From NCBI GenBank assembly GCA_902826815.1, contig CADEGF010000057.1, positions 1-45,026 on the forward strand: a DNA stretch of 45,026 nucleotides. Reading direction: 5' to 3'. Under the pieces are notes generated by a model that was not told the DNA's origin, did not search any database, and saw only the letters and a list, made by a program, of their open reading frames with translations. This DNA comes from an uncultured Mycobacteriaceae bacterium. Lineage in GTDB: Bacteria > Actinomycetota > Actinomycetes > Mycobacteriales > Mycobacteriaceae. The position numbers and the translations under genes are program-made. Below are positions 4,111-25,388 of the stretch, one piece after another (position 1 is the stretch's first letter; the number at the start of each line of letters is the position of its first letter).

Positions 4111-5298
4111 TCAGCGCTTGCCCCAGTCCCACGGCGGCGCGGTGAGCATGCCGAGACCGTCGATGCGTGTCTCGCCGACGTCTTTGTACAGCGGGAGCTC
4201 CACCGCAGGGGTATCGGCTTCGGCGTCGGCGATGGGCATCGTGCCCAGGGACTCCAGCATCGCCTTCGAGTGGGTGACCACGAGGACCTGGGTCGTGTTC
4301 GCTGCGGCCGCGATCAGGGATGCCAAGGGCGCCAACAGGTCCGGGTGCAGAGATGTTTCCGGCTCGTTGAGGACCATCAGCGACGGCGGCTGCGGGCTGA
4401 GCAGTGCGGCGGCCCACAACAGGAAACGCAGTGTGCCGTCGGAGAGTTCGGCCGCGCGCAGGGGACGCAGCATGCCGCGCTGGTGCAATTGGAGTTCGAA
4501 CAGCCCGTCGTTGACCGCCACCGACACCGTCGCGCCGTCGAATGCGTCGGCGACCGCGCGGGAGAGGTCGTCGAACCCGGCCTCGATGATCGTCTGGACT
4601 GCCGCCGCGACGTCGCGGCCGTCGTCGGACAGCACGGGTGTGCGGGTGCCGATGTGGGGGAGCCGCGACGGGGCGTCGGCGTCGACCCGGAATCCGTCGT
4701 AGAACCGCCAGGTACGAAGCCGCTGGCGCACCGCGGCCAACTCGGGGTGGGCGCCGGGATGGGCGTATTCGGCGAGCACACTGCGGTAGAGCGGCAGCGC
4801 GCGCGACACCTGGTCGAAACCCCGCCCGGTCTCGGAGCTGACCTCGACGTACTCCCTGGAGCGCCGGACCAGCGTCGAGCCGGAACGCATGATCGGGCCC
4901 GCGAACACCACCTCGCGCTTGATCTCGGGGTCGAACGCGAACAGCGAGCCATGGCCGGCCATCTGAGGGAGACCGAGGTCGACGAGATATCCGAAATCGT
5001 CTGATGCGAACCCGAGTTCGAGTGCGACGGGGCCCCTTCTGGTTGTTCCCTCGACCCGGCCGGTCCTGCGTGCGCCGGTCAGCTGTTCCGGGCCGGCCCA
5101 CAGCACCGAGTCCAACCCGCCCTCGCGGGCCAGCGATCCGATCACCTCGCCGCGCCCGCAGTCGGCCAGTAGGCGCAGTGCGCGGTATAGCGAGGATTTG
5201 CCGGTGCCGTTGGCGCCGGTGACGAGGGTGAGGCGACGGACCGGCAGCACGATCTCGCGTAGCGAGCGATATCCGCGGATCGCGATCGTCTGCAGCAT
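4111..5298 (-). CDS. RecF/OLD-like AAA ATPase (COG4637 type)
   Basis: A 395-residue ABC-type ATPase of the SMC/RecF/OLD group. It has Walker A GANGTGKSS at 28-36, a signature-like LSDGTLR at 285-291, Walker B LMVLNEPE at 307-314 and an H-loop His at 343 (VTHS). No nuclease (TOPRIM) domain is visible. Such stand-alone ATPases are poorly characterised, and roles in DNA repair or phage resistance are speculative. It lies 27 bp downstream of dinB2 on the same strand, which hints at a DNA-damage operon. A TACCCT hexamer at 5305-5310 ends 6 nt before the ATG, so a separate leaderless transcript is possible. It is convergent with the SDR, with 6 bp between stops. Confidence 0.8.
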   Translation of the reverse strand: MLQTIAIRGYRSLREIVLPVRRLTLVTGANGTGKSSLYRALRLLADCGRGEVIGSLAREGGLDSVLWAGPEQLTGARRTGRVEGTTRRGPVALELGFASDDFGYLVDLGLPQMAGHGSLFAFDPEIKREVVFAGPIMRSGSTLVRRSREYVEVSSETGRGFDQVSRALPLYRSVLAEYAHPGAHPELAAVRQRLRTWRFYDGFRVDADAPSRLPHIGTRTPVLSDDGRDVAAAVQTIIEAGFDDLSRAVADAFDGATVSVAVNDGLFELQLHQRGMLRPLRAAELSDGTLRFLLWAAALLSPQPPSLMVLNEPETSLHPDLLAPLASLIAAAANTTQVLVVTHSKAMLESLGTMPIADAEADTPAVELPLYKDVGETRIDGLGMLTAPPWDWGKR

Positions 5299-9139: not shown

Positions 9140-10870
9140 ATGAATCATTCGCCAGATTTGCAGATCACCGACAAGTTACCGATCCAGAAGCCGTCGGCCG
9201 CCGGGCCACGGCGACCGCAGGGGGCGCTGTCTCGGAGGCGGTTTCTCGGCGCTTCGCTCGGTGTTGCTGTGGGTGCGGCCGTCGGCGCCGGGTTCCTGGA
9301 ACTGCGGAATCGGCCATCCGCTGGAATCTCCCGAGCCCACTTCCCCGCCATCGTGGTCGGCAGTGGATACGGCGGCGGGGTGTCGGCACTGCGGCTCGGC
9401 CAGGCTGGGGTGCAGACCCTGATCCTGGAGAAGGGCAGGCACTGGAATACGCCGGACGATGACGGCAGACGATTCACCCGCATGTTGCCCGCCGATACCA
9501 GGGCCGGCTGGTTCACCGACGTCCCGCCGAGCCTGGTGCCGTCGTATATGGGCGTCTCCGTCGAGCAGGTGGCCAAGAACAATCCGTCGCCGCAACCGGT
9601 CCAGGCCGGGATCTGCGATAAATCGGAGCACGGTGCGCACAGCGTGTTCCGGGGCGTCGGCGTCGGCGGCGGATCGTTGATCAACGCGGCAATCGCCGCG
9701 GTGCCGACGGTCGATCAAGTCCGTGCCGCGTTCCCCGACATCCCCGCGGAGGAATTCCTCGGCACCTACATCGGCCGCGCGTCAGACGTCCTGCGAATCA
9801 ACCGACGCGATATGGACTGGTTCGAGGAGACTCCCTATTTCCAGTACGCCCGGGTGGGACGGCAGTACGCGCAGACCGCCGGGTACGGCATCGACTACAA
9901 CGCCAGCGCGTATTCGTTCGACTACATGAAACAGGAGGAGGCGGGCGAGGTTCCGAAGTCGGCACTCGACTTCGAGCAGCAGTACGGCAACAACTACGGA
10001 CGCTTCGGCAGCGTCGACGAGACGTACATCGCGGCGGCGCTCGCGACCGGCAATGTGAAACTGCGTCCGCTCACCGAGGTCACCGGCGTTCGCCGCGAAC
10101 CCTCCGGTGAGTATGTGGTGTCCATCCGGGAGATCGACCGGTGGGGAACCGAGGTCGCGCGTGATGAGCTCGGTTGCGATCAGCTGTATTTGAGCGCCGG
10201 TGTGCTCGGGACGTCGCAGATTCTCCTGCGGGCCCGCGATACGGGCGCACTTGGAAACCTCAGCGACGAGATCGGCCGCGGGTACGGCAACAACGGCGAC
10301 GTGATGGTCTCGCATATGACGAGCGAATCCGACCCGACCGGAACCCAGCAGTCCCTGATGGGAATGATCAACCTCGATGGCCGCGACGATCCGGACAACC
10401 CGGTGTACGCCAGCATGTTCTCGATCCCGCTTCCCGTCGAGACGCACGCGCTCGGTTACTACGTGATGGTCAAGACCGGCGACCGCGCGGCCATCGCCTA
10501 CGACCGCGCATCCGACGCCGTCAGAATCGACTGGCCCCAAGACCACACCGAACATCTGGAGGCGAGGGCGAGGGCGGTCTTCGACGGGGTGGTCGCCGCC
10601 AACGGCGTCGACTACCGCGACGACATCTTCAACGGCAAGGTCTTCGCGCCCCATACCGTGCACCCGCTCGGCGGCGCGGTGCGCGGTCGGGCCACCGACG
10701 CCTTCGGCCGGGTCAAGGGATACGACAATCTCTTTGTCAACGACGCGTCCCTGGTCCCTGGGTACATCGGGTGCAACCCGTTCATGTCGATCACCGCGCT
10801 GGCCGAACGCAATATCGAGGGCATCCTCCGGGGCAGGCATGACGCCGAGACCGCCGGGCGACTTTCATAA
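9140..10870 (+). CDS. GMC flavoprotein, cholesterol-oxidase-like
   Basis: A 576-residue secreted-type flavoenzyme. It has a twin-arginine signal with SRRRFLG at 31-37 and a hydrophobic stretch to about 53, a FAD-binding GSGYGGG at 74-80, RGVGVGGGSL at 171-180, and C-terminal HPLGG (H508) and CNPF (N546). The spacing H508-N546 equals that of His447 and Asn485 in class I cholesterol oxidases, and the flanking sequence aligns without gaps. However, the position of their catalytic Glu361 is Ser425 here (VYASMF), so sterol isomerisation may be lost or the substrate may differ. It follows the rubredoxin gene by 15 bp without a clear Shine-Dalgarno. Confidence 0.82.
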   Translation: MNHSPDLQITDKLPIQKPSAAGPRRPQGALSRRRFLGASLGVAVGAAVGAGFLELRNRPSAGISRAHFPAIVVGSGYGGGVSALRLGQAGVQTLILEKGRHWNTPDDDGRRFTRMLPADTRAGWFTDVPPSLVPSYMGVSVEQVAKNNPSPQPVQAGICDKSEHGAHSVFRGVGVGGGSLINAAIAAVPTVDQVRAAFPDIPAEEFLGTYIGRASDVLRINRRDMDWFEETPYFQYARVGRQYAQTAGYGIDYNASAYSFDYMKQEEAGEVPKSALDFEQQYGNNYGRFGSVDETYIAAALATGNVKLRPLTEVTGVRREPSGEYVVSIREIDRWGTEVARDELGCDQLYLSAGVLGTSQILLRARDTGALGNLSDEIGRGYGNNGDVMVSHMTSESDPTGTQQSLMGMINLDGRDDPDNPVYASMFSIPLPVETHALGYYVMVKTGDRAAIAYDRASDAVRIDWPQDHTEHLEARARAVFDGVVAANGVDYRDDIFNGKVFAPHTVHPLGGAVRGRATDAFGRVKGYDNLFVNDASLVPGYIGCNPFMSITALAERNIEGILRGRHDAETAGRLS

Positions 10871-11294
10871 CCTTCCGCAGCTTTGCTGTTACGTCACCGT
10901 GACGATCCGGGCCCGGCCATCTGTCGGTGCCTGCTGGTAAACCTGACGATAAAGCGCGACACGAACAGAATGTGACGTGCGACACGCCGAGAGCCTGATC
11001 CGCGATGGGCTTACGACCAGGGAATTTCACAAATGTTGTTTAGAAGATGTGGTATCCCCTCGGAATGTCGGACACTAGGTGTAGTGTTTTGCAAACCGAC
11101 AGACCCCCACAGTTCCACAGGTTTCACGGGTCGGCCGGAGCTGATGAATCCGGCGGAGTCGGTTTTCCGACAGGTCGGCCCAGGAGCCCGGACGGCAGGA
11201 ATTTTGAGGGCAGGCGGGTCGCTGAACCTAAGCGAAGAGCAGTAGCCGATCAGTTGCCAGTCAGTGTCCAGTTCGCAGAGGAGCCGTACCGCAG
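10871..11294. other. nrdHIE regulatory region and leader
   Basis: This 424-bp stretch has no gene I can support. It contains a NrdR box (11072-11087), a degenerate partner 32 bp upstream (11040-11055), then about 200 nt of GC-rich leader. The leader includes a GTCGG-TTTT-CCGAC hairpin (11158-11171) and several GGTCGGCC-type repeats before the nrdH ribosome site. The leader length suggests RNA-level control is possible but I see no known riboswitch core. Confidence 0.6.
11072..11087. promoter_or_regulatory. NrdR box upstream of nrdHIE
   Basis: ACACTAGGTGTAGTGT fits the NrdR consensus (ACACWATATATWGTGT): both 6-bp arms ACACTA and TAGTGT are perfect inverted copies. NrdR represses ribonucleotide reductase operons when dATP is high. 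A degenerate second box lies at 11040-11055, spaced 32 bp. Confidence 0.8.
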
Positions 11295-11537
11295 ATGAAC
11301 ATCACCGTCTACACCAAGCCGGCATGCGTGCAGTGCAACGCGACGTACAAGGCGCTGGAGAAGCAGGGCGTCGCCTACCAGACGGTGGACATCACCCTGG
11401 ACTCCGAGGCCCGTGACTACGTCATGGCGCTCGGCTACCTGCAGGCACCCGTCGTGGTGGCAGGAAACGATCACTGGTCGGGCTTCCGTCCAGATCGCAT
11501 CAAGGCGCTCGCCGGTGCCGGGGTACTCACCGCATAA
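11295..11537 (+). CDS. nrdH: Glutaredoxin-like NrdH redoxin
   Basis: An 80-residue thioredoxin-fold electron donor for class Ib ribonucleotide reductase. The active site CVQC is at 11-14, and the C-terminal [12 protein letters not shown] motif is typical of NrdH. GAGGAG upstream (about 11276-11281) serves as the ribosome site. It is first in the nrdH-nrdI-nrdE operon, behind NrdR boxes. Equivalent to Rv3053c. Confidence 0.95.
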
Positions 11538-11568
11538 CAAACGTTCCGACAGTCAGAAGGGGAATCAG

Positions 11569-12012
11569 ATGAGCAACCTCGTCTACTTCTCCAGCGTGTC
11601 GGAGAACACCCACCGCTTCGTCGAGAAGCTCGGCGGGCCCGCAATCCGGATCCCGCTGCACGGGCGCATCGAGGTCGACGAACCGTATGTGCTGGTGCTG
11701 CCCACCTACGGCGGTGGGCGCGCCACACCGGACATCAACAACGGGGGCTACGTCCCCAAGCAGGTCATCGCATTCCTCAACAACGAGCACAACCGGTCGC
11801 TGATCCGCGGAGTCATCGCGGCCGGTAACAACAACTTCGGTGCCGAGTTCGCCTACGCGGGCAACGTCGTGTCCACCAAGTGTGGCGTTCCGTACCTGTA
11901 CCGATTCGAACTGATGGGAACCCCGGACGACGTGGAAGCCGTCCGCGCGGGACTTGCCGACTTTTGGAAGGACCAGACGTGCCACCAACCGTCACAGCTG
12001 CAGAGCCTGTAA
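11569..12012 (+). CDS. nrdI: Flavodoxin-like NrdI
   Basis: A 147-residue FMN protein that supplies oxidant for assembly of the manganese-tyrosyl radical cofactor of NrdF. It shows the [16 protein letters not shown] phosphate loop (about residues 6-21), LPTYGGG (about 44-50) and AAGNNNFG (around 85). ATG 11569 is the start, with AGAAGGGG 6 nt upstream. nrdH lies 31 bp upstream, and the 3' end overlaps nrdE by 34 bp, implying translational coupling. Equivalent to Rv3052c. Confidence 0.95.
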
Positions 12013-15000
12013 CCTCCGCCGCGCCGGGCGCGCACTCTGCCGCGGGCGCAGGCGAGAACGATTACCACGCCCTGAACGCGATGCTGAATCTGTATGACGC
12101 CGACGGCAAGATTCAGTTCGAGAAGGACCGCGAAGCGGCGCATCAGTACTTCCTGCAGCACGTCAACCAGAACACGGTGTTCTTCCACGATCAGGACGAG
12201 AAGCTCGACTACCTGATCAAGGAGAACTATTACGAGCGCGAGGTGCTCGACCAGTACTCACGCAACTTCGTCAAGACGTTGATCAGCCGCGCCTACGCAA
12301 AGAAGTTCCGGTTCCCGACGTTCCTCGGCGCGTTCAAGTACTACACCAGCTACACGCTGAAGACGTTCGACGGGAAGCGCTACCTGGAGCGCTTCGAGGA
12401 TCGCGTCGTCATGGTGGCGCTGACGCTGGCCGCGGGCGACACAACATTAGCTGAGAAGCTGGTCGACGAGATCATCGACGGCCGATTCCAGCCTGCCACA
12501 CCAACTTTCCTGAATTCCGGCAAAAAGCAGCGCGGCGAGCCAGTTTCATGCTTCCCGGCCGGCACCCCGGTGGACACCCCAGACGGTCCGAAGGCGATCG
12601 AAACCCTACAGGCCGGTGACCGGGTGTTGTCGCACGACGGGTCGTTCTCCGTCGTCGAATCCATGATCGAGAATCCGAACGACCAAGCGCTGGTGTCGAT
12701 CTCACACTTCGGACATAAGGACCCGATCCTCTGCACCCCCGAGCATCCGATTCTTGTGTGGACCACCCGGGATGTCCAGACGCTCATCGACGGTGACGGT
12801 GCCGACCCGTTCAACGGGTTCGTGTGGCTGGCCGCAAAGGATGTTGATCCGGCAGACTTCATCGTGACCGCCGCGCCACTGGAGAATCGTGAGCGGCGCG
12901 TGCACGACTTGATGGACCACGTGGGTTCCGGTACCTACGAAGCGGTCGACGGGCTCATTCGCAAGGTGAACACGGACCTCAAGCATCGCAACAAGCAGCG
13001 CCACCACATGAAGTTCGTGTCGGTGAATCGCTATGTTGAGGAGTCCTACGAGCTCGGACTCGTCCTCGGTTGGTATCTGTCGGAAGGCCACGTCTCCAAG
13101 CGATCGGTGGGCACAGACCGTACCCCGAACGGAATTCACTTCACGCTCGGCGCGCACGAGCTCGAGTACCAGCACGAGTTGGCAGAGGCGTTCAAGCGGG
13201 TGTTCGCGACTGATCTATCCGTCAACGAGAGTTTCTCGGACAACTCTGTGCGCATGATCTGCAACAGCAAGATCGTCGCGTCGTTGTTCCTGTCCATGGT
13301 CGGTACCGGCTACAACGCGAAGCGCTTGTCGCACGACGTCCTGACGGCCGACGACGAGTTTCAGATTGGCCTGCTGGCGGGACTGTTCCGCGGCGACGGG
13401 TGCACTACCACCGGTGGCATGATGCTCGACCTCGTAAACCCGGAACTCATCGATCAGGTGCAGCTGATCCTCCGCCGTCTCGGCATGATGTCCGTCGTTC
13501 GGAAATACATGAACCAGGCGGGCAATGTCACGGGTCAGGTATTCGTCCCCGGGTTGCCTGGCATCAACGAGGACTTCATCTATTCCGTCGGCAAGAACTT
13601 GCACAATTACGTGGGCCGCAAGGGGTCGTTGCGCACCACCTACCAGGTGGTGCACGGGCGCCACGTGTACGGCATCCGCCAGCTCGAGCAGACGCAGCAG
13701 GTTCCGGAGAAGGTCTACAACCTGCACGTCGAAGGCACGCACACCTACACGATCCGCGGCGCCGTCGTGCACAATTGCTTCCTCCTTCGCATCGAGGACA
13801 ACATGGAGTCCATCGGTCGCTCCATCAACTCCGCGCTGCAGCTGTCCAAGCGCGGTGGCGGAGTTGCGTTGCTGTTGAGCAACATTCGCGAGCACGGAGC
13901 GCCGATCAAGAACATCGAGAACCAGAGCTCCGGTGTCATCCCGATCATGAAGCTGCTTGAGGACTCGTTCTCCTACGCCAACCAACTCGGTGCGCGCCAG
14001 GGCGCGGGAGCGGTGTACCTGCACGCCCATCATCCCGACATCTACCGCTTCCTCGACACCAAGCGCGAGAACGCCGACGAGAAGATTCGCATCAAGACGC
14101 TTTCTCTAGGTGTGGTCATCCCGGACATCACGTTCGAGCTGGCCAAGAAGAACGAGGACATGTACCTGTTCTCGCCCTATGACGTGGAACGGGTCTACGG
14201 GGTTCCGTTCGCCGACATCTCGGTGACCGAGAAGTACTACGAGATGGTCGACGACGCGCGCATCCGCAAGACGAAGATCAAGGCGCGCGAGTTCTTCCAG
14301 ACGCTGGCCGAGCTGCAGTTCGAGTCCGGCTACCCGTACATCATGTACGAGGACACGGTGAACCGGGCCAACCCGATCGAGGGCAAGATCACCCACTCGA
14401 ATCTGTGCTCGGAGATCCTGCAGGTCTCGACGCCGTCGGTGTTCAACGACGACCTGTCCTATTCGAAGGTCGGCAAGGACATCTCGTGCAACTTGGGCTC
14501 GATGAACATCGCCAAGACGATGGACTCGCCCGACTTCGCGCAGAGCATCGAGGTGGCGATCCGGGGCCTGACCGCGGTGAGCGATCAGACCCACATCTGG
14601 TCGGTGCCGTCGATCGAGCAGGGCAACAACGACTCTCACGCGATCGGGCTGGGGCAGATGAACCTGCACGGGTACCTCGCGCGGGAGCGGATCTTCTACG
14701 GGTCCGAAGAGGGCATCGACTTCACCAACATCTACTTCTACACGGTGCTCTACCACGCGCTGCGGGCCAGCAACCGCATCGCGATCGAGCGCGGCACGAC
14801 TTTCAAAGGCTTCGAGAACTCGAAGTACGCATCGGGGGAGTTCTTCGACAAGTACACCGAGCAGGTGTGGGAGCCCAAGACCGACAAGGTGCGGCAGCTG
14901 TTCTCCGACGCAGATATTCGCATTCCGACACAAGATGATTGGGCCAAGCTCAAGGAGTCCGTGCAGAAGGACGGCATCTACAACCAGAACCTGCAGGCAG

Positions 15001-15389
15001 TCCCGCCGACGGGGTCGATCTCCTACATCAACCACTCGACATCATCGATCCATCCGGTGGCGAGCAAGATCGAGATCCGCAAGGAAGGCAAGATCGGTCG
15101 CGCCTACTACCCGGCGCCGTACCTGACCAACGACAACCTCGAGTACTACGAGGATGCCTACGAGATCGGCTACGAAAAGATCATCGACACGTACGCCGCG
15201 GCCACCCAGCACGTGGATCAGGGGCTGTCGCTGACGCTGTTCTTCAAGGACACCGCCAGCACCCGCGATGTCAACAAGGCGCAGATCTACGCGTGGCGCA
15301 AGGGAATCAAGACCTTGTACTACATCCGGCTACGGCAGATGGCGCTCGAGGGCACCGAGGTGGAGGGCTGCGTCTCCTGCATGTTGTAG
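11979..15389 (+). CDS. nrdE: Ribonucleotide reductase NrdE with intein
   Basis: Class Ib ribonucleoside-diphosphate reductase alpha subunit, encoded as a 1136-residue precursor with a 409-residue intein at residues 191-599; the spliced product would be 727 residues, close to the 725 of M. tuberculosis NrdE. GTG 11979 (MPPTVTA...) is the start, with GGAAGGA at 11966-11972 inside nrdI. The active-site cysteines are C600 of the precursor (PVS|CFLL, right after the intein), one in NLCSEI (thiyl radical position) and one in ISCNLGS. The C-terminal CVSCML is the redox pair that NrdH reduces. It works with NrdF2, encoded 18 kb downstream, to make dNDPs. Activity needs intein removal because the intein splits the catalytic barrel. 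Confidence 0.95.
12549..13775 (+). mobile_element. LAGLIDADG intein in NrdE
   Basis: An in-frame 409-residue intein with all splicing blocks: Cys1 in CFPAGTPV, T63-x-x-H66 (TPEH), C-terminal VHN (H408, N409), and +1 Cys of the extein. The two homing-endonuclease motifs LGWYLSEGH (173-181) and [10 protein letters not shown] (275-284) both keep their acidic residues, so homing may still work. Removing it rejoins GEPVS to CFLLRIED exactly as in intein-free mycobacterial NrdE. The +1 nucleophile is the reductase's own redox-active cysteine. Confidence 0.95.
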
Positions 15390-15527: not shown

Positions 15528-18341
15528 CTACCCTTCGACGCACACCGGCGGCATGCCTTCGAGGCTATACCGCTCTTTCTCGGCGTCCGTCAGCTCCCGC
15601 TGGTGCACGTCACAACCTTCCCTGATCCAGTCTTCGGGATCCAGAGCCCATGTCCGGACCCGGCCGTCGCCAATGGAGGCCGTCACGGCGAGATCGGCCC
15701 CGACGCCCAGGCTGGTAGCCAGCAGACCGCCACCGGCGGCATCACTGTCCACTGCGGTCAGGGTGCGGTCGGAAAACCGACTACGGGTGGCCAGATCCCA
15801 AAGGATGAAGCTGCCGTCTTCCGACACCGTGACGAGTACATTGCCGTCGTCCCGGAACGCCAGGTCGGTAACTCGACTTGCCACCCGCATGTCGTCGCCG
15901 GTCTGCTCGCCCGTCGTCAAGTCGATCAACCGCACCGGTCCACTCCAGAGGCCGACCGCGGCCGTCGCACCATCCGGCGAGACGGCCAGCGAGCGGACGA
16001 TATCGTCCTCGAGATCGACAGTGACCGTTTTTCCGCCCTTCACAGGACGGATGGCGAGCTTGTCAGCGCCACCGATGACCAGTCGGGTTCCGTCCTGGGT
16101 GAACGCGAGGCCATAGCCATAGGGGACGTCCTCCACCCGATCCTGTTCGACAAGCCTGCGGCCATCCATCCGCCACAGCCGCACGCTGGCCGAGTCGTTG
16201 GTGTCGGCTTCGAGGTCCAGCGCCCCGGTCGCGATCGTGGTGCCGTCGGGAGAGACGGCGAGCCGATTCACCGGTTGGCCCGGTGCCACTTGGGTGAAGG
16301 TCGCCTCGCTGGTCTTGCCGTCCCATACGGCGACGGTTCCGTTGTCCATACCCGCGAGCAACAGTGTGCCGTCTGGTGTGAATGTGAGTCTTTCCACGTC
16401 TGCGTCCATGCGAGCCGACGGACCGTCCGGCTCGGGATTGTCCGGCTCAGTGAGAACCAGCTCGATCACGGGTGCCGTCCCATCTGTCGGGGTGTCCGTT
16501 GAGTCGTTGGGCTCGGCGCGGACCACGGCAAGCCGATCACCCGCAGGAGACAGAGCGACAAGGGCCGCGTTGGTCAACCCTTCTATCGTGCGAGAGAGTG
16601 GACGGCGTTCGTCGTCGCCGTACTCGAACAGCAAGGCCCCGCCCGCCTGGCCGCCGGTGACGCCGCGGTCGGGGTTCGCCGGGTCCCAGGCGACAGAATT
16701 GGCGGCGCGCTCGTCGACGCGGATAGGGGACAGCGGCACACCTCCGGTGAGGTGGTTCCAATAGACGACAGAGCCGTCATCGCCCACCGAAGCCACAGAC
16801 CCGGCCTCGGCTGCTTCCCCGGTGGCTGCGAGCCCGCGCACGCTGTCGACATGCACCATGTGGATGGCGGCATCGGTCAGGGTTCCATCCGAGGCGTTCC
16901 AGAACCCGACAGAGCCATCGGTGCCGCCGGTGACTACCGTGCCGTCCTGCACGACGGCCACCGCCGAGACCCAATCGCCCGGACGGGTGGCTTGCTTCTC
17001 TTCCCACACCGGATTGTCGGTTGCGTCGAGATCGTAGCGGCGAACGCTGCCGCTCTTGCTGGCAACGACCACGGCGCCGTCGGGCGTCCAGGCCAACGCA
17101 CTGATCGATGCGAACTGGCCGTCGGCGTCGTCGGGGACGGCGACGAACGACGTGCTCGGGTCCGCACGGTCTCGCTCCCACACCAGCACCTTGCCATCGG
17201 CCGTGCCCGCCGCTACCCGACCCGTCGATGGCTGCGCGGCCAGGCTGAGCACCGCATTGCCGGGGACGCGGACCAGTGTCTTCTTCGACGCACCATCGAT
17301 GGTGGTGACGACGGTGCCGTCGGTGGCGACGACGGTGTCGTCCGCGAGCTTGGTCATGGCCAGGACCTCGCCGACGAAAAGCCCGTCTGCCCGGCCGAGC
17401 TGCTCTCCGTCCGAGAAGCGGTGCACGATGACGTCGCCGTCGGCCGTGCCGATCCAAACCCGGTCAGCCGCATCGGACATGGCTACCGCTTTCACCGGCG
17501 AATCGGTGCGGATGCGCTGCTTGATCTCCGGCAGGTTGGCGACGCTGGTGAGAAGAGCGCTTTCGGTTCGCTCACTTTGATAAAGCCGGTAGCCATGCGC
17601 GGCGAGCAGGAAGGCCAGGTCCGGCTGCTCGAGCTCGGTCTGACTTTGTGCGGCCAGCCGTTGAGCGTCTGCCTGAATGCGCCGCTGCTCTGCGCGGTCG
17701 GCATTCACCACCGCGACGCCGCCCGCGACGACCGCCGCGACGGTGAGGACTGCGAGGGTGGCGGCGGCCGACCATGCGATGCGCACCGTCCGACGGTGCT
17801 GCCGAACATCCTCGCCCTCGATCTGGTCTTTCGACACCCCGTGCAGCGGGGCGGCGATTTCTGCGACGGCATTGCGGAACCGGCCGTTGTTGAGATCGAC
17901 CTGCTGTTCTTCTCGGGCCCATCGCAGGTCGAGATGTCGGGGCTCGTCGGTGAACACACCGCGCAAGGCCGGAGGCACGGCGTCGGATTCGGGTGTGAAG
18001 TCACCCGTCTTGTCGTCCCACTCCCAGTGACCGTCGGTGAGTATCGGCAGGATCCGGTCGACGGAGCGGTTGGCCCTCCAGTGCTCGATCTCGCGGCCTA
18101 CCCACTCGGACTGCGCCGCGAGCGGCGAGGTGAGCACCAGGAACCACTCGGAGTCGTCGAGAGCCTTGACGATGGCCCCCCACAGGTGCGGGTCCACCGA
18201 TAGGCCGGTCTCGTCGCGGAAGATCTCCAGAGACCGCCGCCGGAACCACGGCTTGGCCAATTTCTGCAACGCCTTCTGCAAAGCGGGTGCCAACCGACCA
18301 TCGGCCGCGTGCGAATAAGAGATGAAGCCGTCGTAGCGCAT
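15528..18341 (-). CDS. TIR-TM-WD40 protein
   Basis: A 937-residue protein. The N-terminal TIR domain (about 1-130) has YDGFISYSH, a BB-loop-like RDETGLSVDP (42-51) and SEWVGRE with E84 at the position of the catalytic glutamate of NADase TIRs. A transmembrane helix at about 188-212 is followed by the helical AAQSQTELEQPDLAFLLAAHG linker (from about 230) seen in STAND/WD40 proteins. About 14 WD40-like blades run from 281 to 900, with weak WD dipeptides. The start ATG 18341 begins exactly at the TIR domain; an upstream extension of the frame is non-homologous and overlaps the neighbour. It is divergent from another TIR gene. Function is unknown; sensing by the propellers and NAD-linked signalling or killing by TIR is inferred. 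Confidence 0.85.
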   Translation of the reverse strand: MRYDGFISYSHAADGRLAPALQKALQKLAKPWFRRRSLEIFRDETGLSVDPHLWGAIVKALDDSEWFLVLTSPLAAQSEWVGREIEHWRANRSVDRILPILTDGHWEWDDKTGDFTPESDAVPPALRGVFTDEPRHLDLRWAREEQQVDLNNGRFRNAVAEIAAPLHGVSKDQIEGEDVRQHRRTVRIAWSAAATLAVLTVAAVVAGGVAVVNADRAEQRRIQADAQRLAAQSQTELEQPDLAFLLAAHGYRLYQSERTESALLTSVANLPEIKQRIRTDSPVKAVAMSDAADRVWIGTADGDVIVHRFSDGEQLGRADGLFVGEVLAMTKLADDTVVATDGTVVTTIDGASKKTLVRVPGNAVLSLAAQPSTGRVAAGTADGKVLVWERDRADPSTSFVAVPDDADGQFASISALAWTPDGAVVVASKSGSVRRYDLDATDNPVWEEKQATRPGDWVSAVAVVQDGTVVTGGTDGSVGFWNASDGTLTDAAIHMVHVDSVRGLAATGEAAEAGSVASVGDDGSVVYWNHLTGGVPLSPIRVDERAANSVAWDPANPDRGVTGGQAGGALLFEYGDDERRPLSRTIEGLTNAALVALSPAGDRLAVVRAEPNDSTDTPTDGTAPVIELVLTEPDNPEPDGPSARMDADVERLTFTPDGTLLLAGMDNGTVAVWDGKTSEATFTQVAPGQPVNRLAVSPDGTTIATGALDLEADTNDSASVRLWRMDGRRLVEQDRVEDVPYGYGLAFTQDGTRLVIGGADKLAIRPVKGGKTVTVDLEDDIVRSLAVSPDGATAAVGLWSGPVRLIDLTTGEQTGDDMRVASRVTDLAFRDDGNVLVTVSEDGSFILWDLATRSRFSDRTLTAVDSDAAGGGLLATSLGVGADLAVTASIGDGRVRTWALDPEDWIREGCDVHQRELTDAEKERYSLEGMPPVCVEG

Positions 18342-18362
18342 GTCCTCACCGGTCGTCTGGGC

Positions 18363-18378
18363 GTCCCGAAAGTGGGAC
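18363..18378. promoter_or_regulatory. Inverted repeat between divergent TIR genes
   Basis: GTCCC (18363-18367) and GGGAC (18374-18378), separated by GAAAGT, lie in the 99-bp gap between the two TIR genes. It could be an operator or promoter element shared by both directions. No regulator gene is adjacent. Confidence 0.35.
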
Positions 18379-18440
18379 ACCCGCCCCACCTTTGAAGTAC
18401 GTTGGCAACGATATCCTTGTTTGCTGACAGTGAGGGCGGC

Positions 18441-21400
18441 ATGTCGAGAATCTTTCTCAGCCACTCGAGCTTGGACACGCGCGAAGCGATTGCGCTCAAG
18501 CACTGGCTCGCCGAACAGGATCCGCCGCTTGCCAATGAGATCTTCCTCGATGTCGACCCAGGCTCTGGATTGCAGACCGGGACACGATGGAAGGACGCGT
18601 TGCGGCGTGCGAACGCGCGATGTGAAGCGGTCATCTGCCTGCTGTCGCCAAATTGGGAGGCGTCCCAGGAATGCCGCGTCGAGTACCGCACCGCGGAAAA
18701 CCTGAACAAGCAGATCTTCATGGCCCGGATGGAACCGTCCACAGGCGATGACCTCACCTCTGAATGGCAGCGCTGCGACCTGTTCGGCGACGGGCCCACG
18801 ACACAGATCGACGTCGGCGACGCACCCGTGGAATTCTCGACCGCTGGCCTCTACCGCCTTCGCGACGGCATCCGCGGTGCAGGCATCGGCGCGGAGTCGT
18901 TCGTGTGGCCGCCACCCGGCGACCGCGACCGGTCGCCCTATCGAGGCTGGGAACCACTGGAGGAGAGGGACGCCGCGGTGTTCTTCGGCCGCGACGCTCA
19001 AATTGTGAAGGCGCTGGATGCAATTCGCGGCATGCGGTTGTCGGGCATCAACGCACTCTTCGTCGTACTCGGACCGTCGGGCACCGGCAAGTCGTCGTTC
19101 CTGCGGGCGGGTGTGTTGCCCCGTCTGCGTCGCGAAGACCGCCGTTTCGTACTGCTCGACATCGTGCGCCCTGAACGGAATGCGCTCGTCGGCGATTCGG
19201 GGTTGGCGCAGGCGATCGTGAAGACAAGGTCGTCGGTTGGGCTCTCCCAACCGAGCCTGGGCGAGATCAAGGCCGCTTGCGGCAACGGCGACGTCTCAGC
19301 GGTTGCCGGCTGGCTCGCCGAGATACGGCAAGAGGCTGCGGCGCGGCTGGTGAATCGCGGGGACGGTGAAGCGGATGCAGCGGCGGCGCCGACCCTGGTG
19401 CTGCCGCTGGACCAGGCCGAGGAACTGTTCTCCGCCGACTCGGGAGACTCGGCCGACGCGTTCCTCCGGCTGCTGGCCGGGGTGATAGGCGAGCTGAACA
19501 TCAACGAGATCGGCTTGGCCGTCGCTGCCACGATCCGCACTGACCGCTACGAGTTGATGCAGACCAACCCGGTCCTCGCACAGTTCGGCACCGTACTTTT
19601 CGACGAGCTCAAGCCAATGCCACCCACGCAGTTCAAGGAAGTCATCACCGGTCCGGGGCGGCGCTCCACGGAGGCAGGCAGACCCCTGTCGATCGCGCCT
19701 GACCTCGTCGACCGGTTGTTGGCCGACGCTTCTGAGGGCGCCGACACCCTGCCAATGCTCGCGCTGACGATGTCCCGGCTCTTCACCGACTACGGCAGCA
19801 CCGGCGAGCTCACCCTGGCCCACTACGAGTCGATGGGCGGCATGCGCCGCGTCGTAACAACCGAGATCGACGACGTGCTGTCGTCGGATGCGCAACGGCG
19901 GGCTGCCGAACTGGAGGCACTGCGCGCGGCGTTCATCCCGTGGCTGGCGACGATCAACCCCGACAACGATCAGCCGATGCGACGAGTGGCACGGTGGTCT
20001 GATCTGCCGGAAGCCGGCAGACCGTTGATCGACGCGCTCGTCGCAAAACGTCTGATGGTGAAGGACACTCGCGACGGCGAAACCGTGGTCGAAGTCGCGC
20101 TGGAAAGTCTTCTGCGGCAGTGGGACGAGCTGGCCGCCTGGCTACGCGAGCAGCGCCAAGAACTCAAAGACGCCGACGATCTGGAGCGCAGCGCTGCCGG
20201 ATGGAGCGCCAACGCAGAGGATCGGGCTTGGCTGCTCTCCGGCACCAGGCTGGTCGACGCCGAAACCCTCTCCAATAGACCAGGTTTCCGCCAACGTCTG
20301 AGTGAGACGTCGGCGTACCTCGCCGCATCGAGATATGCGGAGAACCAACGTAAAGCCGCCGAAGAAGAACAACGCCTGGCCGAATTGCGGGCGGCCGAAG
20401 AGCGTGCAGCGTATGCGCAAGAGCGTCAAGTCACCGCAGAATCACACGCGGCGACAGTGCGGAAGCGCTCGCGGATCTTGCGCGCGGTGCTCGCGGTGAC
20501 CGCCGTCGTCGCAGTCGCCGCCGCCGCCGGCTTTGTCTACGCCACGAAGGCCACCAGCGAGGCGCAGCGGCGATTCGAGCAAGCTACAAGTGTGCGGCTC
20601 ACCAACGAGGGTGTGGCGATGATGGTCGGTAACAAACCCGGCGGTGACACGCGTGCCATGCAGGAACTCATGGCCGCACGCGCGCTGACTACAAGCCCCG
20701 ACGATGACGCGCTCTACAGCATCGCCGTCAAGGACCGCAATACTCGCAAGGTCATTCCGACACCGGTGCCGATGTGGTCGGTCGCATACAGCCCCGACGG
20801 ACGGCACGTCGCTGGGTCGGGAAGGGACGGATTCATCGGTATCTGGGATGCCAAGAGCGGCGAACCGGTGGGTGAGCCGTTCGAGGGTCAGGGCGGACTT
20901 GTTCAGCAAGTCGTTTACAGCCTCGACGGAAGTGTGTTGGCCACCGCTGCGGCCGACGACACGGTGCGGATCTGGGATGCCAACTCGGGTAAGCAGATTC
21001 GTGAACTCGATGGTCATACTCCTGGGGCGACCGACGCTGCCTTCAGTGCTGAAGGTAGCCAGCTGGCCACCTTGAGTTCTGGCGGCCTGCTTCGGGTGTG
21101 GGACGTCGGATCGGGCCGCACACTGACGAGTGTGAACACCGGGCATACCGGGCCCACCAACTGTCTCGCCTACAGTCCGGACGGTCGTCTCCTGGCGACC
21201 GGGAGTGACGACGGCACGGTCAAAATGTGGGATGCGGGCACGGGTGCGCTGATCGGCGAGCCGATGACGCCCAACATCGGAAACGTGAATGCACTCGAGT
21301 TCAGCCCGGACGGTCGCCGCTTGGCCAGCGGCGGAAGCGATGCGGTCATCTGGGACACGGCGACCCGACAGCCGGTCGGAGAGCGCCTGACCGGGCACAC

Positions 21401-22628
21401 GAACGCCATCAGCAGCATCGCCTTCAGCCGCGACGGCCGGTGGATGGCCACCTCGTCTGCAGACTCCACGATTCGGGTGTGGGACGCACAAACGGGCTTC
21501 TGGACTGGTATCGGCATATGGGGACACGAGAGCACGGTGTTCGGCGTGGCGTTCAGTCCGGACGGAAGTCGGCTCGTCAGCGCCGGTCGCGATTCCACGG
21601 TGCGGATCTGGGAGCCTTGGAAAGGGGCGGCTGTTTACGCACATGGCGACAATGCCCGCGCAGTCGCGTACGCGCCAGACGGCAAAATGCTGGCCAGTGC
21701 CGGTTACGACGGGAAAATCCAATTCTGGAATCCGGACACGGGCCAGTCGATGGGTGATCCGATTATCGGAAGTGGCTGGGAGGCACTGAGCTTCAGTGAA
21801 GATGGCAGACAGCTGGCGGCCGGGGGCTTCAATGGCACGGTCGTCGTCTTCGACACAGCCTCGCGTCGGCCGATCGCCCAGACATCCACAGGTCATCCTG
21901 CTGGCATTCGATTCGTCGACTTCAGCCCTGACGCGTCACGGGTCAGTCTTGTCGACTGGGATGGCGTCGCCGGGGTGTGGGAGCTGGCCGGCGGAAAGCA
22001 GGTGGGCGCCGACGTTGCCGATATCAACGCGCTCGCGATGACCAAGGACTGGAAAATGCTCGCCGAGAGCCAGAACGTCGATGCGGGTCAGATCAGGCTT
22101 CTCAACCTCAACGAAAAGGAAGCCGAACTGACGGATCTGATGAAGGGGCACACCAACAGTCTGCGAAGCCTGGCCTTCGACCCGTCCGGAAAAATGCTCG
22201 CATCGGCAGGTGACGATACGACAATCCGACTGTGGGACGTGGAATCACAGAAGCAAATCGGAGACGAGATGACCGGCCACACGGACACTGTGTTCAGCGT
22301 CGCGTTCAGCCCGGACGGGAATCGCCTGGTCTCCGGTGGAGGCGATACCACTGTGCGCCTATGGGATATCAAGTCCCATAAGCAAATCGGCGATCCACTG
22401 CTCGGACACGGTGAACAGGTGATCAGTGTGGCGTGGCGACCGGACGGCACCGGGTTCGCCTCCGCGAGCAACGACGGCACCGTTTACCTGTGGCCCGCAT
22501 CTGCCGATCCCGGCGAGATCTGTTCGAAGCTGACGGCCAACATGAGCCGCAAACAGTGGAACGAATGGGTGTCGCCTGACATCGACTACCGGAAGGGATG
22601 TCCGGATCTGCCGATAGCGCCTCACTAG
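18441..22628 (+). CDS. TIR-nSTAND1 NTPase-TM-WD40 protein
   Basis: A 1395-residue multidomain protein. A TIR-like domain (about 1-100) starts MSRIFLSHSS and has SPNWEASQECRVE with E81 at the catalytic position. The junction PYRGWEPLEERDAAVFFGR (from about 166) is the nSTAND1 hallmark. The NTPase has Walker A GPSGTGKSS (211-219) and Walker B LVLPLDQAEELF (319-330). A charged coiled coil (about 630-675), one transmembrane helix (about 679-701) and 14 clear WD40 repeats (about 776-1354) follow, enough for two seven-bladed propellers. ATG 18441 is chosen because the TIR domain begins there and GAGGG lies 4 nt upstream. STAND proteins oligomerise on ligand binding to activate the N-terminal effector. 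Immunity is an inference. Confidence 0.87.
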   Translation: MSRIFLSHSSLDTREAIALKHWLAEQDPPLANEIFLDVDPGSGLQTGTRWKDALRRANARCEAVICLLSPNWEASQECRVEYRTAENLNKQIFMARMEPSTGDDLTSEWQRCDLFGDGPTTQIDVGDAPVEFSTAGLYRLRDGIRGAGIGAESFVWPPPGDRDRSPYRGWEPLEERDAAVFFGRDAQIVKALDAIRGMRLSGINALFVVLGPSGTGKSSFLRAGVLPRLRREDRRFVLLDIVRPERNALVGDSGLAQAIVKTRSSVGLSQPSLGEIKAACGNGDVSAVAGWLAEIRQEAAARLVNRGDGEADAAAAPTLVLPLDQAEELFSADSGDSADAFLRLLAGVIGELNINEIGLAVAATIRTDRYELMQTNPVLAQFGTVLFDELKPMPPTQFKEVITGPGRRSTEAGRPLSIAPDLVDRLLADASEGADTLPMLALTMSRLFTDYGSTGELTLAHYESMGGMRRVVTTEIDDVLSSDAQRRAAELEALRAAFIPWLATINPDNDQPMRRVARWSDLPEAGRPLIDALVAKRLMVKDTRDGETVVEVALESLLRQWDELAAWLREQRQELKDADDLERSAAGWSANAEDRAWLLSGTRLVDAETLSNRPGFRQRLSETSAYLAASRYAENQRKAAEEEQRLAELRAAEERAAYAQERQVTAESHAATVRKRSRILRAVLAVTAVVAVAAAAGFVYATKATSEAQRRFEQATSVRLTNEGVAMMVGNKPGGDTRAMQELMAARALTTSPDDDALYSIAVKDRNTRKVIPTPVPMWSVAYSPDGRHVAGSGRDGFIGIWDAKSGEPVGEPFEGQGGLVQQVVYSLDGSVLATAAADDTVRIWDANSGKQIRELDGHTPGATDAAFSAEGSQLATLSSGGLLRVWDVGSGRTLTSVNTGHTGPTNCLAYSPDGRLLATGSDDGTVKMWDAGTGALIGEPMTPNIGNVNALEFSPDGRRLASGGSDAVIWDTATRQPVGERLTGHTNAISSIAFSRDGRWMATSSADSTIRVWDAQTGFWTGIGIWGHESTVFGVAFSPDGSRLVSAGRDSTVRIWEPWKGAAVYAHGDNARAVAYAPDGKMLASAGYDGKIQFWNPDTGQSMGDPIIGSGWEALSFSEDGRQLAAGGFNGTVVVFDTASRRPIAQTSTGHPAGIRFVDFSPDASRVSLVDWDGVAGVWELAGGKQVGADVADINALAMTKDWKMLAESQNVDAGQIRLLNLNEKEAELTDLMKGHTNSLRSLAFDPSGKMLASAGDDTTIRLWDVESQKQIGDEMTGHTDTVFSVAFSPDGNRLVSGGGDTTVRLWDIKSHKQIGDPLLGHGEQVISVAWRPDGTGFASASNDGTVYLWPASADPGEICSKLTANMSRKQWNEWVSPDIDYRKGCPDLPIAPH

Positions 22629-24997
22629 GCGTCCTGGGGTTCGTAACGTCGCGCGAATTCGTCTGCGGGCACCGGCCATTCCTCTCCTTGCTCGCCGCGC
22701 ACCACCCAGTCGCCTTCGGCGGCGGTAACCTGACCCTCCAGCGTGTCGACGACCTCTCCGCTGCGGGCAGGACGCGCGGTGACGACGCCGTGTCGGCGCC
22801 AGGTGTCGCCGTCGATGTGTTCGTGCCGCGCGCGGAAGATGTCGTCGCGGACCGACCAGGGCCTCCCGTCGGGAGTTTCTCTCACGAACCAGTCGCCGGC
22901 CTGGGCGCTGACCGACTCGCCCGAGTCCGTCGTCCACGTCCACGGCTCGGACCTCTGCTCGGCGAGCACGGTGCCGACCTGCTTGAAGCGTCGCCACACC
23001 GGGCCATTGGTCATCGGCCTGGACCGGTATCCGAGTTCTCGAAGCTTGATCAACGTGGTCGCGAGGCTGCTCACCGCTTTTTCGAAAAGCTCAGGATCTG
23101 ATTCGATCTCAGCCCAGTCGACCAGTTTGTCGTGGATTTTCCTGGCGTCATCGCGCGGCTTCCCATACCGCCACTTCGCCGCGATGTAGTACCGCCGCCA
23201 GTCCTCGTGTTCCTCGCGCGCCATCGCGATCGCCGCATCACGGTCGAAACCCATGAGCCGCAACTGATCCAGTGGCTCCTTACCTCGCATGTTGGTGATC
23301 GGCACCGCGCTCTCGCCGTCCCAGACGTTCCAGGTGTGTCCGCCGATTTTCTCCACCATCCACAGCGCGTTGCTTACCTGGCGCCGGTTTGACTCGCGGT
23401 AGAACTCGTCGAGTTCGGCCCACGGCAGGCTGGCCGCCGACTTGCGCCCGGCCTCGGCGGCATACCGGTCGTGTATCAGCCGCGCGGCCCGCTCCCAGTC
23501 GTCCTGCGCCTGGCCCTTCGGCATGTCCATACTGAGTCGGTAGGTCGTCAGCCGACCGACGATCGACAATCGATCGTCGGTCACTTCGGCATCGGGATCC
23601 CATGCGTAGATCAGCGTGTTCGGAAACCGGGCAGCGAGCCGGGTACCCATCGTGGCGTCGACGGCAGATCCGGTCGACCCGTCGGCGTCCACCAGGATGA
23701 CCGCGGTCTGACTGGCTGAATCGTCTTTGCGCAACAGGGCGGACAACGATGCCACGGTGGGTGTTTCGGCGACTGCCTCGACGCGCAGTCCATCGCCGGA
23801 GATCCCGAGTTGGCGTTGCGAATGCTCGTGGTCCTCTTCGTATTCGGCGGCGTTCGAAGCGACGAGGACGAGCCGCGGTAGCGGCCGATCTCCCGGTGCG
23901 GAGTAATAGTCCTTCTCCAGCTGCCGCTGGCCGAGCTCGGAACACAGCGCCAACGTCAGCCGCGAGGCGCCGCAAACGAAAATCCTTCGCACCGAACCGC
24001 TTTCGATAGTTCGGTCGAGCAGCTGGCGGGCTGTGACCTCATACTTGCCGACTGCGTCTGCCGCCCACCGGGCACCCGATCTACCGAAGTGCTCAGCACG
24101 CCAGGCCTCGGCCTGCCACGGGTCGTCGATGCGCACGATCAGCGGGATGCGCACACGCTGGTCGACATCCTTGAGGCACTCCGTGATGGTCGCCAACCTC
24201 AACAAGTTGCTCGAGGGGTCTGCAGATAAGAGATAGAGCCTGTCGAGCTTTCGCCACAGCGATAGCGATGCCAGTGTCGCAGGATTTGTGAGGTTGACCG
24301 CCAGCACACGGGCGCCCTGCGCACGCGCTTCCTGGACACACGGCCGGTCGGGGTTGGCAGTGATGACGGCCAGCGTTCCGCGGTGGTCCATCGACCGCGC
24401 GACCGCACTGACCAGAGACTGCGCGTCGTCATCCATGTCGACGACGGCGGTCACCGAGCGGGCGAAGTAGACGCGCAGTCGGTCCACCCGCGACTGAAAC
24501 AACGCCATCGCGACGCCGACCACCGACAGGAATACCGCCGCCAGCGCGCAGATCTGGGCGACGTCGAGAGCCACCGGCGTCTGCGCCGGACACGCTCCGT
24601 CGCTCAGCGACTGGTCAGCGTTGGCGCCCTTGACCAAGTCGGCGGTCCAGATCAATGGCGTGAAAAAGGTCGGGTTCGAGTCGTCGTGACACCGCCAGTA
24701 CGACGACAGCCCCAGGAGTGCGCCTATCAACGCCAAGCCGGCCACGATCGCGACGGGTGCCCCGGGCCGTCGATTGGTTCCCGACCGCCACAGCGCAGTC
24801 GCGAGTCCAATCAGGACGATGATGACGATCGCGATGGTCGGCGCGGAATTAGGCTCGCCGAACCATTTGACCGCCGCGGGCAGTCCATTGCGCGCATGCG
24901 GCCATGAGGCGAGCACGGCGAGGTAGCAGATCAGGGTCACGGCAACGACCGACAGGACGGTCCTGATCGCGGTCAACCCGCTGACGGCGCTGCGCAC
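22625..24997 (-). CDS. Membrane TrkA-N/RyR domain protein
   Basis: A 790-residue protein with four likely transmembrane helices (about 10-30, 53-70, 82-100, 145-167), two Rossmann-like TrkA-N/RCK-like segments (about 180-330 and 335-490), a RyR domain (about 500-650) with REEHEDWRRYYIAAKWRYG (595-612 region) and KIHDKLVDWAEI (620-631), and two C-terminal AGDW/EGDW modules (699-725 and 760-786). Four helices plus two RCK-like domains recalls ion-channel layouts, but I see no selectivity filter. GTG 24997 follows a TAAAAT hexamer by 6 nt. It converges on the TIR-STAND gene with overlapping stops. RyR domains occur in bacterial conflict systems as putative ligand sensors (general knowledge); its role here is unproven. 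Confidence 0.75.
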   Translation of the reverse strand: MRSAVSGLTAIRTVLSVVAVTLICYLAVLASWPHARNGLPAAVKWFGEPNSAPTIAIVIIVLIGLATALWRSGTNRRPGAPVAIVAGLALIGALLGLSSYWRCHDDSNPTFFTPLIWTADLVKGANADQSLSDGACPAQTPVALDVAQICALAAVFLSVVGVAMALFQSRVDRLRVYFARSVTAVVDMDDDAQSLVSAVARSMDHRGTLAVITANPDRPCVQEARAQGARVLAVNLTNPATLASLSLWRKLDRLYLLSADPSSNLLRLATITECLKDVDQRVRIPLIVRIDDPWQAEAWRAEHFGRSGARWAADAVGKYEVTARQLLDRTIESGSVRRIFVCGASRLTLALCSELGQRQLEKDYYSAPGDRPLPRLVLVASNAAEYEEDHEHSQRQLGISGDGLRVEAVAETPTVASLSALLRKDDSASQTAVILVDADGSTGSAVDATMGTRLAARFPNTLIYAWDPDAEVTDDRLSIVGRLTTYRLSMDMPKGQAQDDWERAARLIHDRYAAEAGRKSAASLPWAELDEFYRESNRRQVSNALWMVEKIGGHTWNVWDGESAVPITNMRGKEPLDQLRLMGFDRDAAIAMAREEHEDWRRYYIAAKWRYGKPRDDARKIHDKLVDWAEIESDPELFEKAVSSLATTLIKLRELGYRSRPMTNGPVWRRFKQVGTVLAEQRSEPWTWTTDSGESVSAQAGDWFVRETPDGRPWSVRDDIFRARHEHIDGDTWRRHGVVTARPARSGEVVDTLEGQVTAAEGDWVVRGEQGEEWPVPADEFARRYEPQDA

Positions 24998-25088: not shown

Positions 25089-25388
25089 CTACCCGACGGA
25101 GACTGCCTTGATGTCGGGCATGCGCGTCAGCACAGGCCTTTTCCGAGGGGTCTTCGGGCCGGGTTCGGCCTGTTCGACGGTGGCTTCGGGGTAGTCCCAG
25201 CACTCGCCGGACCGTTCGTCGTAGGTGCCGCCATAGAAGACACAGCAGACGCCGATGCCGTCGGTGTCCTGGTGGTCTGCGATGCACTCCCAGAAGTCGT
25301 CTTCCGGTGTGGCGCTTGCCGTCGCGGCCAGTCCGACAGCCAGGCTCAGGGCCATCGTGGCGCTGGCGATGAGTCGCTTCGTGTTCAT
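25089..25388 (-). CDS. Small secreted cysteine-containing protein
   Basis: A 99-residue protein with a clean Sec signal peptide: basic MNTKR, hydrophobic core and an ATASA cleavage site before TPEDD at about residue 27. The roughly 73-residue mature part is acidic at first, with four cysteines (WEC, VCC, GEC) that could form two disulfides, and ends in a Pro/Lys/Arg-rich tail. ATG 25388 starts the signal peptide; a longer frame upstream overlaps the next gene and is not homologous. It resembles small exported mycobacterial proteins of unknown function. It lies 91 bp upstream of the RyR gene on the same strand. Confidence 0.7.
   Translation of the reverse strand: MNTKRLIASATMALSLAVGLAATASATPEDDFWECIADHQDTDGIGVCCVFYGGTYDERSGECWDYPEATVEQAEPGPKTPRKRPVLTRMPDIKAVSVG

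Follow-up and report, generated by a model that had tools for sequence, protein, structure and literature searches.

Thoeris is among the described systems closest to the locus reported here. In it, a TIR protein (ThsB) with glutamate at the catalytic position is encoded beside a protein (ThsA) with a domain of a family that binds ADP-ribose-type signals, and the same combination is seen in the present locus. A second point of comparison is the phage Repeat12 protein RyDEP (35TM), which according to its description (PMC13232231) binds isomers of cyclic ADP-ribose (cADPR) via H75, W78, H100 and D117 and itself cleaves them; among eight phage homologs tested, six bound and none cleaved. The locus consists of three genes, g1, g2 and g3, on contig CADEGF010000057.1 (assembly GCA_902826815.1) of an uncultured Mycobacteriaceae bacterium, and the whole stretch of 45,026 nucleotides that was analysed is called the window below. 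An earlier note on this DNA had read the genes, in this order, as a TIR protein with WD40 repeats, a TIR-nSTAND1 protein with WD40 repeats and a membrane TrkA-N/RyR protein. A check of open reading frames (ORFs) and translations found all three open and in that order, and Pfam backs the architectures.

The gene of main interest is g3 (22625..24997, minus strand), which on the basis of Pfam, an AlphaFold2 model and fold matches encodes a predicted RCK-type membrane channel of 790 amino acids with a Repeat12 domain and PGDYG-like repeats. The other two were assigned from ORFs, hydrophobicity and Pfam: g1 (15528..18341, minus strand, 937 amino acids) consists of a TIR domain, one transmembrane (TM) helix and WD40 repeats, and g2 (18441..22628, plus strand, 1395 amino acids) of a TIR domain, an nSTAND1 domain, one TM helix and WD40 repeats. 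In mycobacteria g3 is kept together with some TIR gene, and we consider it fairly likely that the two form a Thoeris-like pathway: the TIR receptor would produce a signal derived from nicotinamide adenine dinucleotide (NAD), and this signal would act on the g3 channel.

Pairing of g3 with TIR genes

Gene neighbourhoods were compared at the loci of the best 80 of 94 g3 relatives (handles L), and a tree was made of 81 g3 proteins including that of the window. Co-occurrence was counted in 148 genomes of the genus (handles G), and a class-wide sample comprised 296 genomes. A TIR domain was located within 5 kb of g3 at 73 of the 80 loci, with a median distance of 184 bases and a largest of 4888, and at L081 and L115 a g2-type gene truncated by the contig end lies beside g3. 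In a preliminary set of 20 neighbourhoods from the genus, a TIR gene stood beside g3 in 18, including L060, where the TIR part is cut off, and L074, where it was identified by Pfam. The genomes of the loci contain 160 TIR_2 matches spread over 78 genomes, exactly one in 40 of them, and by chance a TIR domain would be expected within 10 kb of g3 at 0.61 loci. Chance adjacency was rejected for mycobacteria, as the observed number is far above the expected one and comes from many sites. When the g3 proteins were clustered at 80 % identity, 37 groups resulted, of which 32 were paired with a TIR. The flanking genes divide the 80 loci into 17 sites, 16 of which have a paired member (one by way of a cut gene), and the partner class, with the absence of a partner counted as a class, requires 14 changes on the g3 tree.

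Co-occurrence gave a similar picture. Both g3 and a TIR partner are present in 52 of the 148 genomes, g3 alone in three, a partner alone in seven and neither in 86 (Fisher p 2.2e-28, kinship uncorrected). The lists used for this count were set by hand (g2 at E ≤ 1e-128, g1 at ≤ 1.1e-38, and TIR-PknH_C, for rows including the TIR end, at ≤ 3.1e-69), and g3 was scored as absent from nine genomes whose matches to it were weak or fragmentary. In two small genomes of the genus (G114 and G154, 3.3 Mb) g3 and TIR-PknH_C are both found only in pieces, most of them with internal stops. Short fragments of g1 and g3 also lie head to head at G107:C20:99163-100166, apparently a decayed copy.

The earlier note had proposed an undescribed membrane system of TIR and TrkA-N/RyR proteins and had suggested looking for conserved adjacency. 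These counts support the central idea through the adjacency and co-occurrence of TIR and g3. The three genes do not form a fixed set, a candidate that was rejected because, in the stretches compared for the 80 loci, L076 alone shares with the window a g1-type plus a g2-type gene next to g3; 14 of the 148 genomes gave a match to the g1 TIR query. The independent occurrence which the note had named as the contrary outcome is therefore found between g1 and g2, and it does not extend to TIR and g3. The conserved unit is g3 plus some TIR gene, the partner being any of several TIR architectures.

A patatin-like gene was recognised by motif between g2 and g3 at 10 of the 80 loci, and in L076 its identity is backed by Pfam (2.1e-27). 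At five loci (L126, L127, L130, L132 and L138) g3 is split: its C-terminal domain is encoded by an ORF of its own beyond g2, and g2 and the patatin gene are sandwiched between the two g3 halves. The five are close on the tree and thus represent one event.

RyR matches were obtained in 41 of the 296 class genomes, 33 of them outside the genus. At 12 loci outside the genus (L180-L191), a TIR gene is found within three genes of the RyR gene in L182, L184, L186 and L191. In L191 (genome G073, one of the 33) the TIR gene overlaps the RyR gene, and the TIR of L186 carries a Septum_form match just under the cut-off. A DUF4062-like gene is near RyR in L188-L190 (Pfam was run on L188), a WD40-like gene, named by eye, in L181, and no such neighbour was found near RyR in L180, L183 and L185. 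In L187 a RelA_SpoT-RyR protein (9178-11622), which also gave sub-threshold matches to TPR-S and LSDAT_prok (SLOG), is encoded beside a TrkA_N-RyR gene, so that the RyR domain is found here in a further context of nucleotide signalling. Among plasmids g3 matched one record (E 1e-8); on a mobilizable Rhodococcus plasmid a g3 homolog has a DUF4062 gene as its neighbour, and a WD40 and a TIR gene are located downstream. Close TIR-RyR pairing characterises the mycobacterial branch and some other branches.

Predicted channel and Repeat12 domain of g3

The AlphaFold2 model of g3 has a pLDDT (predicted local distance difference test) of 84.5. Its membrane part (TM1-TM4, 24464..24979, minus strand, as are all features of g3) contains a pore-like helix at residues 112-122 and Cys 103 and 136 in the loop between TM3 and TM4. 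It is followed by two Rossmann/RCK lobes (23498..24457), a domain like the ryanodine-receptor Repeat12 (23009..23440) and C-terminal PGDYG-like beta repeats (22637..22996). Pfam found RyR at 1.7e-7 and 31.8 bits (cut-off 27.4), and TrkA_N (5e-4) and PGDYG (5.3e-4) below their cut-offs. KtrA, TrkA, CASTOR, DMI1, Slo1, GsuK and MthK are among the fold matches of the RCK part, and tandem RCK lobes, as in the RCK-gated channels GsuK, MthK, Slo1 and plant CASTOR/DMI1, are seen in the model, where they come after TM helices and a pore-like helix. The protein differs from these channels in its additional Repeat12 and PGDYG-like domains and in the loose fit of the membrane part, into which the alignments of GsuK and MthK reach, beginning at model residues 79 and 80, respectively, with a root-mean-square deviation (rmsd) near or above 10. 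Among g3 rows with a residue at the position, C103 is kept in 79 of 79 and C136 in 76 of 79. The pore segment reads T-A-x-L-V-K-G, with K123 in 74 and G124 in all of the 79 rows.

The match to the Repeat12 domain (PF02026) was obtained both by profile and by fold, with 25 % identity over 159 aligned residues to a Bacteroides/human chimera (6uhi). The likeness to animal ryanodine receptors ends there, as the rest of the receptor is unmatched in g3 and the channel fold is another one. Compared with RyDEP, the domain has the matching His, Trp and His: H597 is present in 79, W600 in 81 and H622 in 81 of the 81 proteins, and the RyDEP spacing of 3 and 22 is retained. The column equivalent to D117 holds Asn in 44, Asp in 14, Ser in 8 and Glu in 4 of the proteins, the window having Glu. 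Of the catalytic dyad of RyDEP, H75 and D117, spacing and alignment thus show the His in g3 and no conserved Asp. Since the His, Trp and His are kept and the Asp is not, the alignment fits a binder better than an enzyme. In contrast to RyDEP, g3 is bacterial, is fused to a predicted channel and stands beside a likely producer of the signal.

One alternative, in our opinion unlikely, is that g3 is a brake, its Repeat12 domain soaking up or cleaving the TIR signal and guarding the cell from its own TIR. Signal removal is the closest characterised function of a Repeat12 domain, whether by cleavage as in RyDEP or by binding without cleavage as in six of the eight homologs, and the retained equivalent of H75 is in keeping with it. 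The column of the aspartate, with Asn in 44 proteins, Asp in 14 and Glu in the window, argues against this reading, and a sponge would need neither four TM helices nor two RCK lobes. Moreover, the seven genomes with a TIR partner alone do without a strong g3, three of them (G028, G118 and G133) having a short TrkA_N-RyR gene adjoining the TIR.

Two modules of g3 occur in phages, as the RyR and PGDYG modules are each found as phage proteins. The C-terminal repeat (22628-23020) has homologs among small PGDYG-type proteins of phages (phrog_419, 6.3e-13), and 43 viral contigs matched it. The RyR region of the window gave weak phage matches by tblastn (best 0.03), and 51 phage records matched a stronger query, the RyR domain of L191.

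TIR partners and gene surroundings

The classes of TIR partner were assigned from domain matches. The commonest is TIR - TM - PknH_C, at 47 of the 80 loci, plus L141 in split frames; the others are g2-type (16 and two cut), g1-type (four), other (five) and none (five). Pfam was run on two of the PknH_C partners and found this 'PknH-like extracellular domain' in L086 (1.5e-43) and L084 (1.4e-33). It named no sensor domain in the L134 partner, of the class 'other'. The C-terminal sensor of the TIR partners is probably extracytoplasmic, as suggested by positive residues that precede the TM helix in both g1 and g2 and by the name that Pfam gives to PknH_C.

This variety of partners bears on a second alternative, about as unlikely as the brake: that g3 lies upstream, sensing an adenine nucleotide or NAD and regulating the TIR by contact, the TIR alone being an NAD+-depleting killer. 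Such a role would agree with the structures of GsuK with NAD and ADP among the RCK matches, with RyR3 Repeat12 having been solved with AMP-PCP, ADP and ATP, and with the membrane helices predicted in g1, g2 and g3. The partner TIRs, however, have very different sensors and linkers, for which a diffusible signal, as in the Thoeris-like pathway, is an easier explanation than a shared contact surface.

The TIR_2 domain of g1 (18030..18326, minus strand) was found by Pfam at 1.9e-8, and it also reaches 22.8 bits for ThsB_TIR, above the cut-off of 21.2. That of g2 (18450..18791, plus strand, 1.5e-11) is followed by an nSTAND1 NTPase (18936..20225, plus strand, 5.6e-64), by which g2 is a STAND NTPase. 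WD40 was found by Pfam in both proteins. In the TIR alignment, g1, g2 and six others have Glu at a position (A3 column E84) that we take to be the catalytic one, and this putative catalytic Glu appears in 72 of the 73 nearest partner TIRs, the remaining one having a gap. The only two cysteines of g1, 910 and 934, are both C-terminal, and a similar pair occurs in g2.

The gene arrangement reported earlier was found to be correct. With starts at ATG 18341 and ATG 18441, g1 and g2 are divergent and 99 bases apart, and g3, starting at GTG 24997, is convergent with g2, the stops overlapping by 4 bases (22625-22628). A longer minus-strand ORF (15528-19250) was rejected as g1 because it is over-extended; the true start is preceded by GGTGAGG. 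Membrane helices, likewise expected in the two TIR proteins and in g3, were predicted from hydrophobicity as one in g1, one in g2 and four in g3.

Beyond g3 come a GG-reductase-like gene and a TetR gene, and g3 occupies the same site in several other genomes of the genus; the tree places it closest to the g3 of a metagenome-assembled genome of an uncultured Mycolicibacterium. PADLOC models gave no match to g3, a single weak one to g1 (PDC-S66, 3.2e-4) and, for g2, HEAT-ARM_XIII (4.8e-39) over the WD40 repeats and a marginal mad8. Between g3 and the GG-reductase-like gene lies a 99-residue ORF containing Cys (25089-25388, minus strand) with a signal-like start and no Pfam match. The nrdE gene (11979-15389, plus strand) holds an intein, with Hint and LAGLIDADG matches, and that of L055/L075 (722 amino acids) appears to be free of it. 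An AAA_21 ATPase, putatively AbiEii-type by its Pfam text, is found at 4111-5298 (minus strand, 6.1e-33).

A probable Thoeris-like pathway

The pairing, the co-occurrence, the conserved His, Trp and His, the RCK model, the TIR Glu and the linkage retained at split g3 loci all count in favour of the Thoeris-like pathway. The TIR protein, anchored by its single TM helix, would sense something via the sensor at its C terminus, which is WD40 in this locus and PknH_C in the majority of relatives. Once activated, the cytosolic TIR domain would cleave NAD+ to an ADP-ribose-type messenger, and in g2 the nSTAND1 ATPase would add an assembly switch. The messenger would be bound by the Repeat12 domain of g3, and the RCK lobes would then open or close the channel, shifting ion balance or membrane potential. 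Growth would halt, possibly as abortive phage defence and possibly as a response to envelope stress.

In addition to the TIR Glu, the locus resembles Thoeris in the ThsB_TIR match of g1 and in the adjacency of the TIR gene to the putative effector. It differs in that g3 has, by Pfam, neither SIR2 nor SLOG nor Macro, that the sensor of the signal would be a Repeat12 domain and the output a predicted channel, and that the TIR carries a large sensor domain and is anchored in the membrane. As the known effector domains are absent and its activity is putative, the locus was not filed as a member of Thoeris. DUF4062 ('Swarozyc') proteins are TIR-like NADases according to PMC13174449, and DUF4062 adjoins RyR in L188-L190 and the g3 homolog on the Rhodococcus plasmid, whereas the TIRs of the window are TIR_2. 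Word searches found no RyR in PMC13174449, nor in PMC9503650 and PMC7159879. Among the papers listed by searches of the open PubMed Central library, no description of a TIR and TrkA_N-RyR system was found. The best account is a pathway that works like Thoeris with an effector of a type not found described in these searches.

Several observations weigh against this pathway. The K+ filter TVGYG of RCK-gated channels is absent after the pore-like helix of g3, where a conserved Lys-Gly is found instead; together with the high rmsd to the membrane parts of GsuK and MthK this means that g3 may be something other than a K+ channel, or may be non-conducting. In 20 RyR loci of other genera, taken from the 33 genomes outside the genus and inspected over two genes on each side in the gene models, no TIR gene was found, although many of these genomes are rich in TIR genes; the presence of a TIR neighbour thus does not follow from that of a TrkA_N-RyR protein, and a universal TIR-RyR pairing was rejected. 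One of these, L233, adjoins a TPR-S gene (58.5 bits, cut-off 27.6), with a possible SLOG gene below the cut-off. Five of the 80 loci (L075, L083, L102, L143 and L153) have no TIR neighbour, three of them (L083, L102 and L153) making up the only unpaired site, and many g3 loci are related by descent. In L128 and L146 the g3 protein (~10001-12289) lacks the first ligand His, GEWESW replacing EHEDW with Trp at that position, and yet TIR genes adjoin. Finally, no defence island turned up around the window, though its genes were not all scanned for one. In L146, ORFs resembling by eye a DNA methyltransferase and a GHKL-like ATPase (18435-21146) were also seen near the locus.

It is very improbable that the TIR genes are mere neighbours of an ordinary ion channel, without a functional link to g3: TIR-free TrkA_N-RyR genes of other genera do occur in housekeeping-like settings (metK- and def-like, by eye), but in the genus the adjacency is far above chance over many sites, TIR types and orientations, and co-occurrence is near one-to-one.

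The mycobacterial pair of a TIR and a predicted channel with a RyR domain suggests a bacterial version of cADPR-to-channel signalling. A more specific version of the Thoeris-like pathway, which we offer tentatively and hold to be somewhat short of an even chance, has TIR receptors that span the membrane once, with interchangeable sensors outside the cytoplasm (WD40, PknH_C), and cADPR as the molecule that gates the Repeat12 channel. It would be the likely explanation for the free Repeat12 proteins of some phages and would mirror two animal pathways. Whether and how cADPR acts on ryanodine receptors has long been debated, a matter to which PMC13232231 also points. If the proposal is true, a Repeat12 domain joined in one protein to a small RCK-type channel, beside the likely maker of the ligand, would make this question testable in a simple system, and an ion-channel effector would be added to TIR signalling. 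It would also give a reason why a mycobacteriophage should carry a Repeat12 enzyme that destroys cADPR isomers, and would provide a native TIR signalling system for study in mycobacteria.

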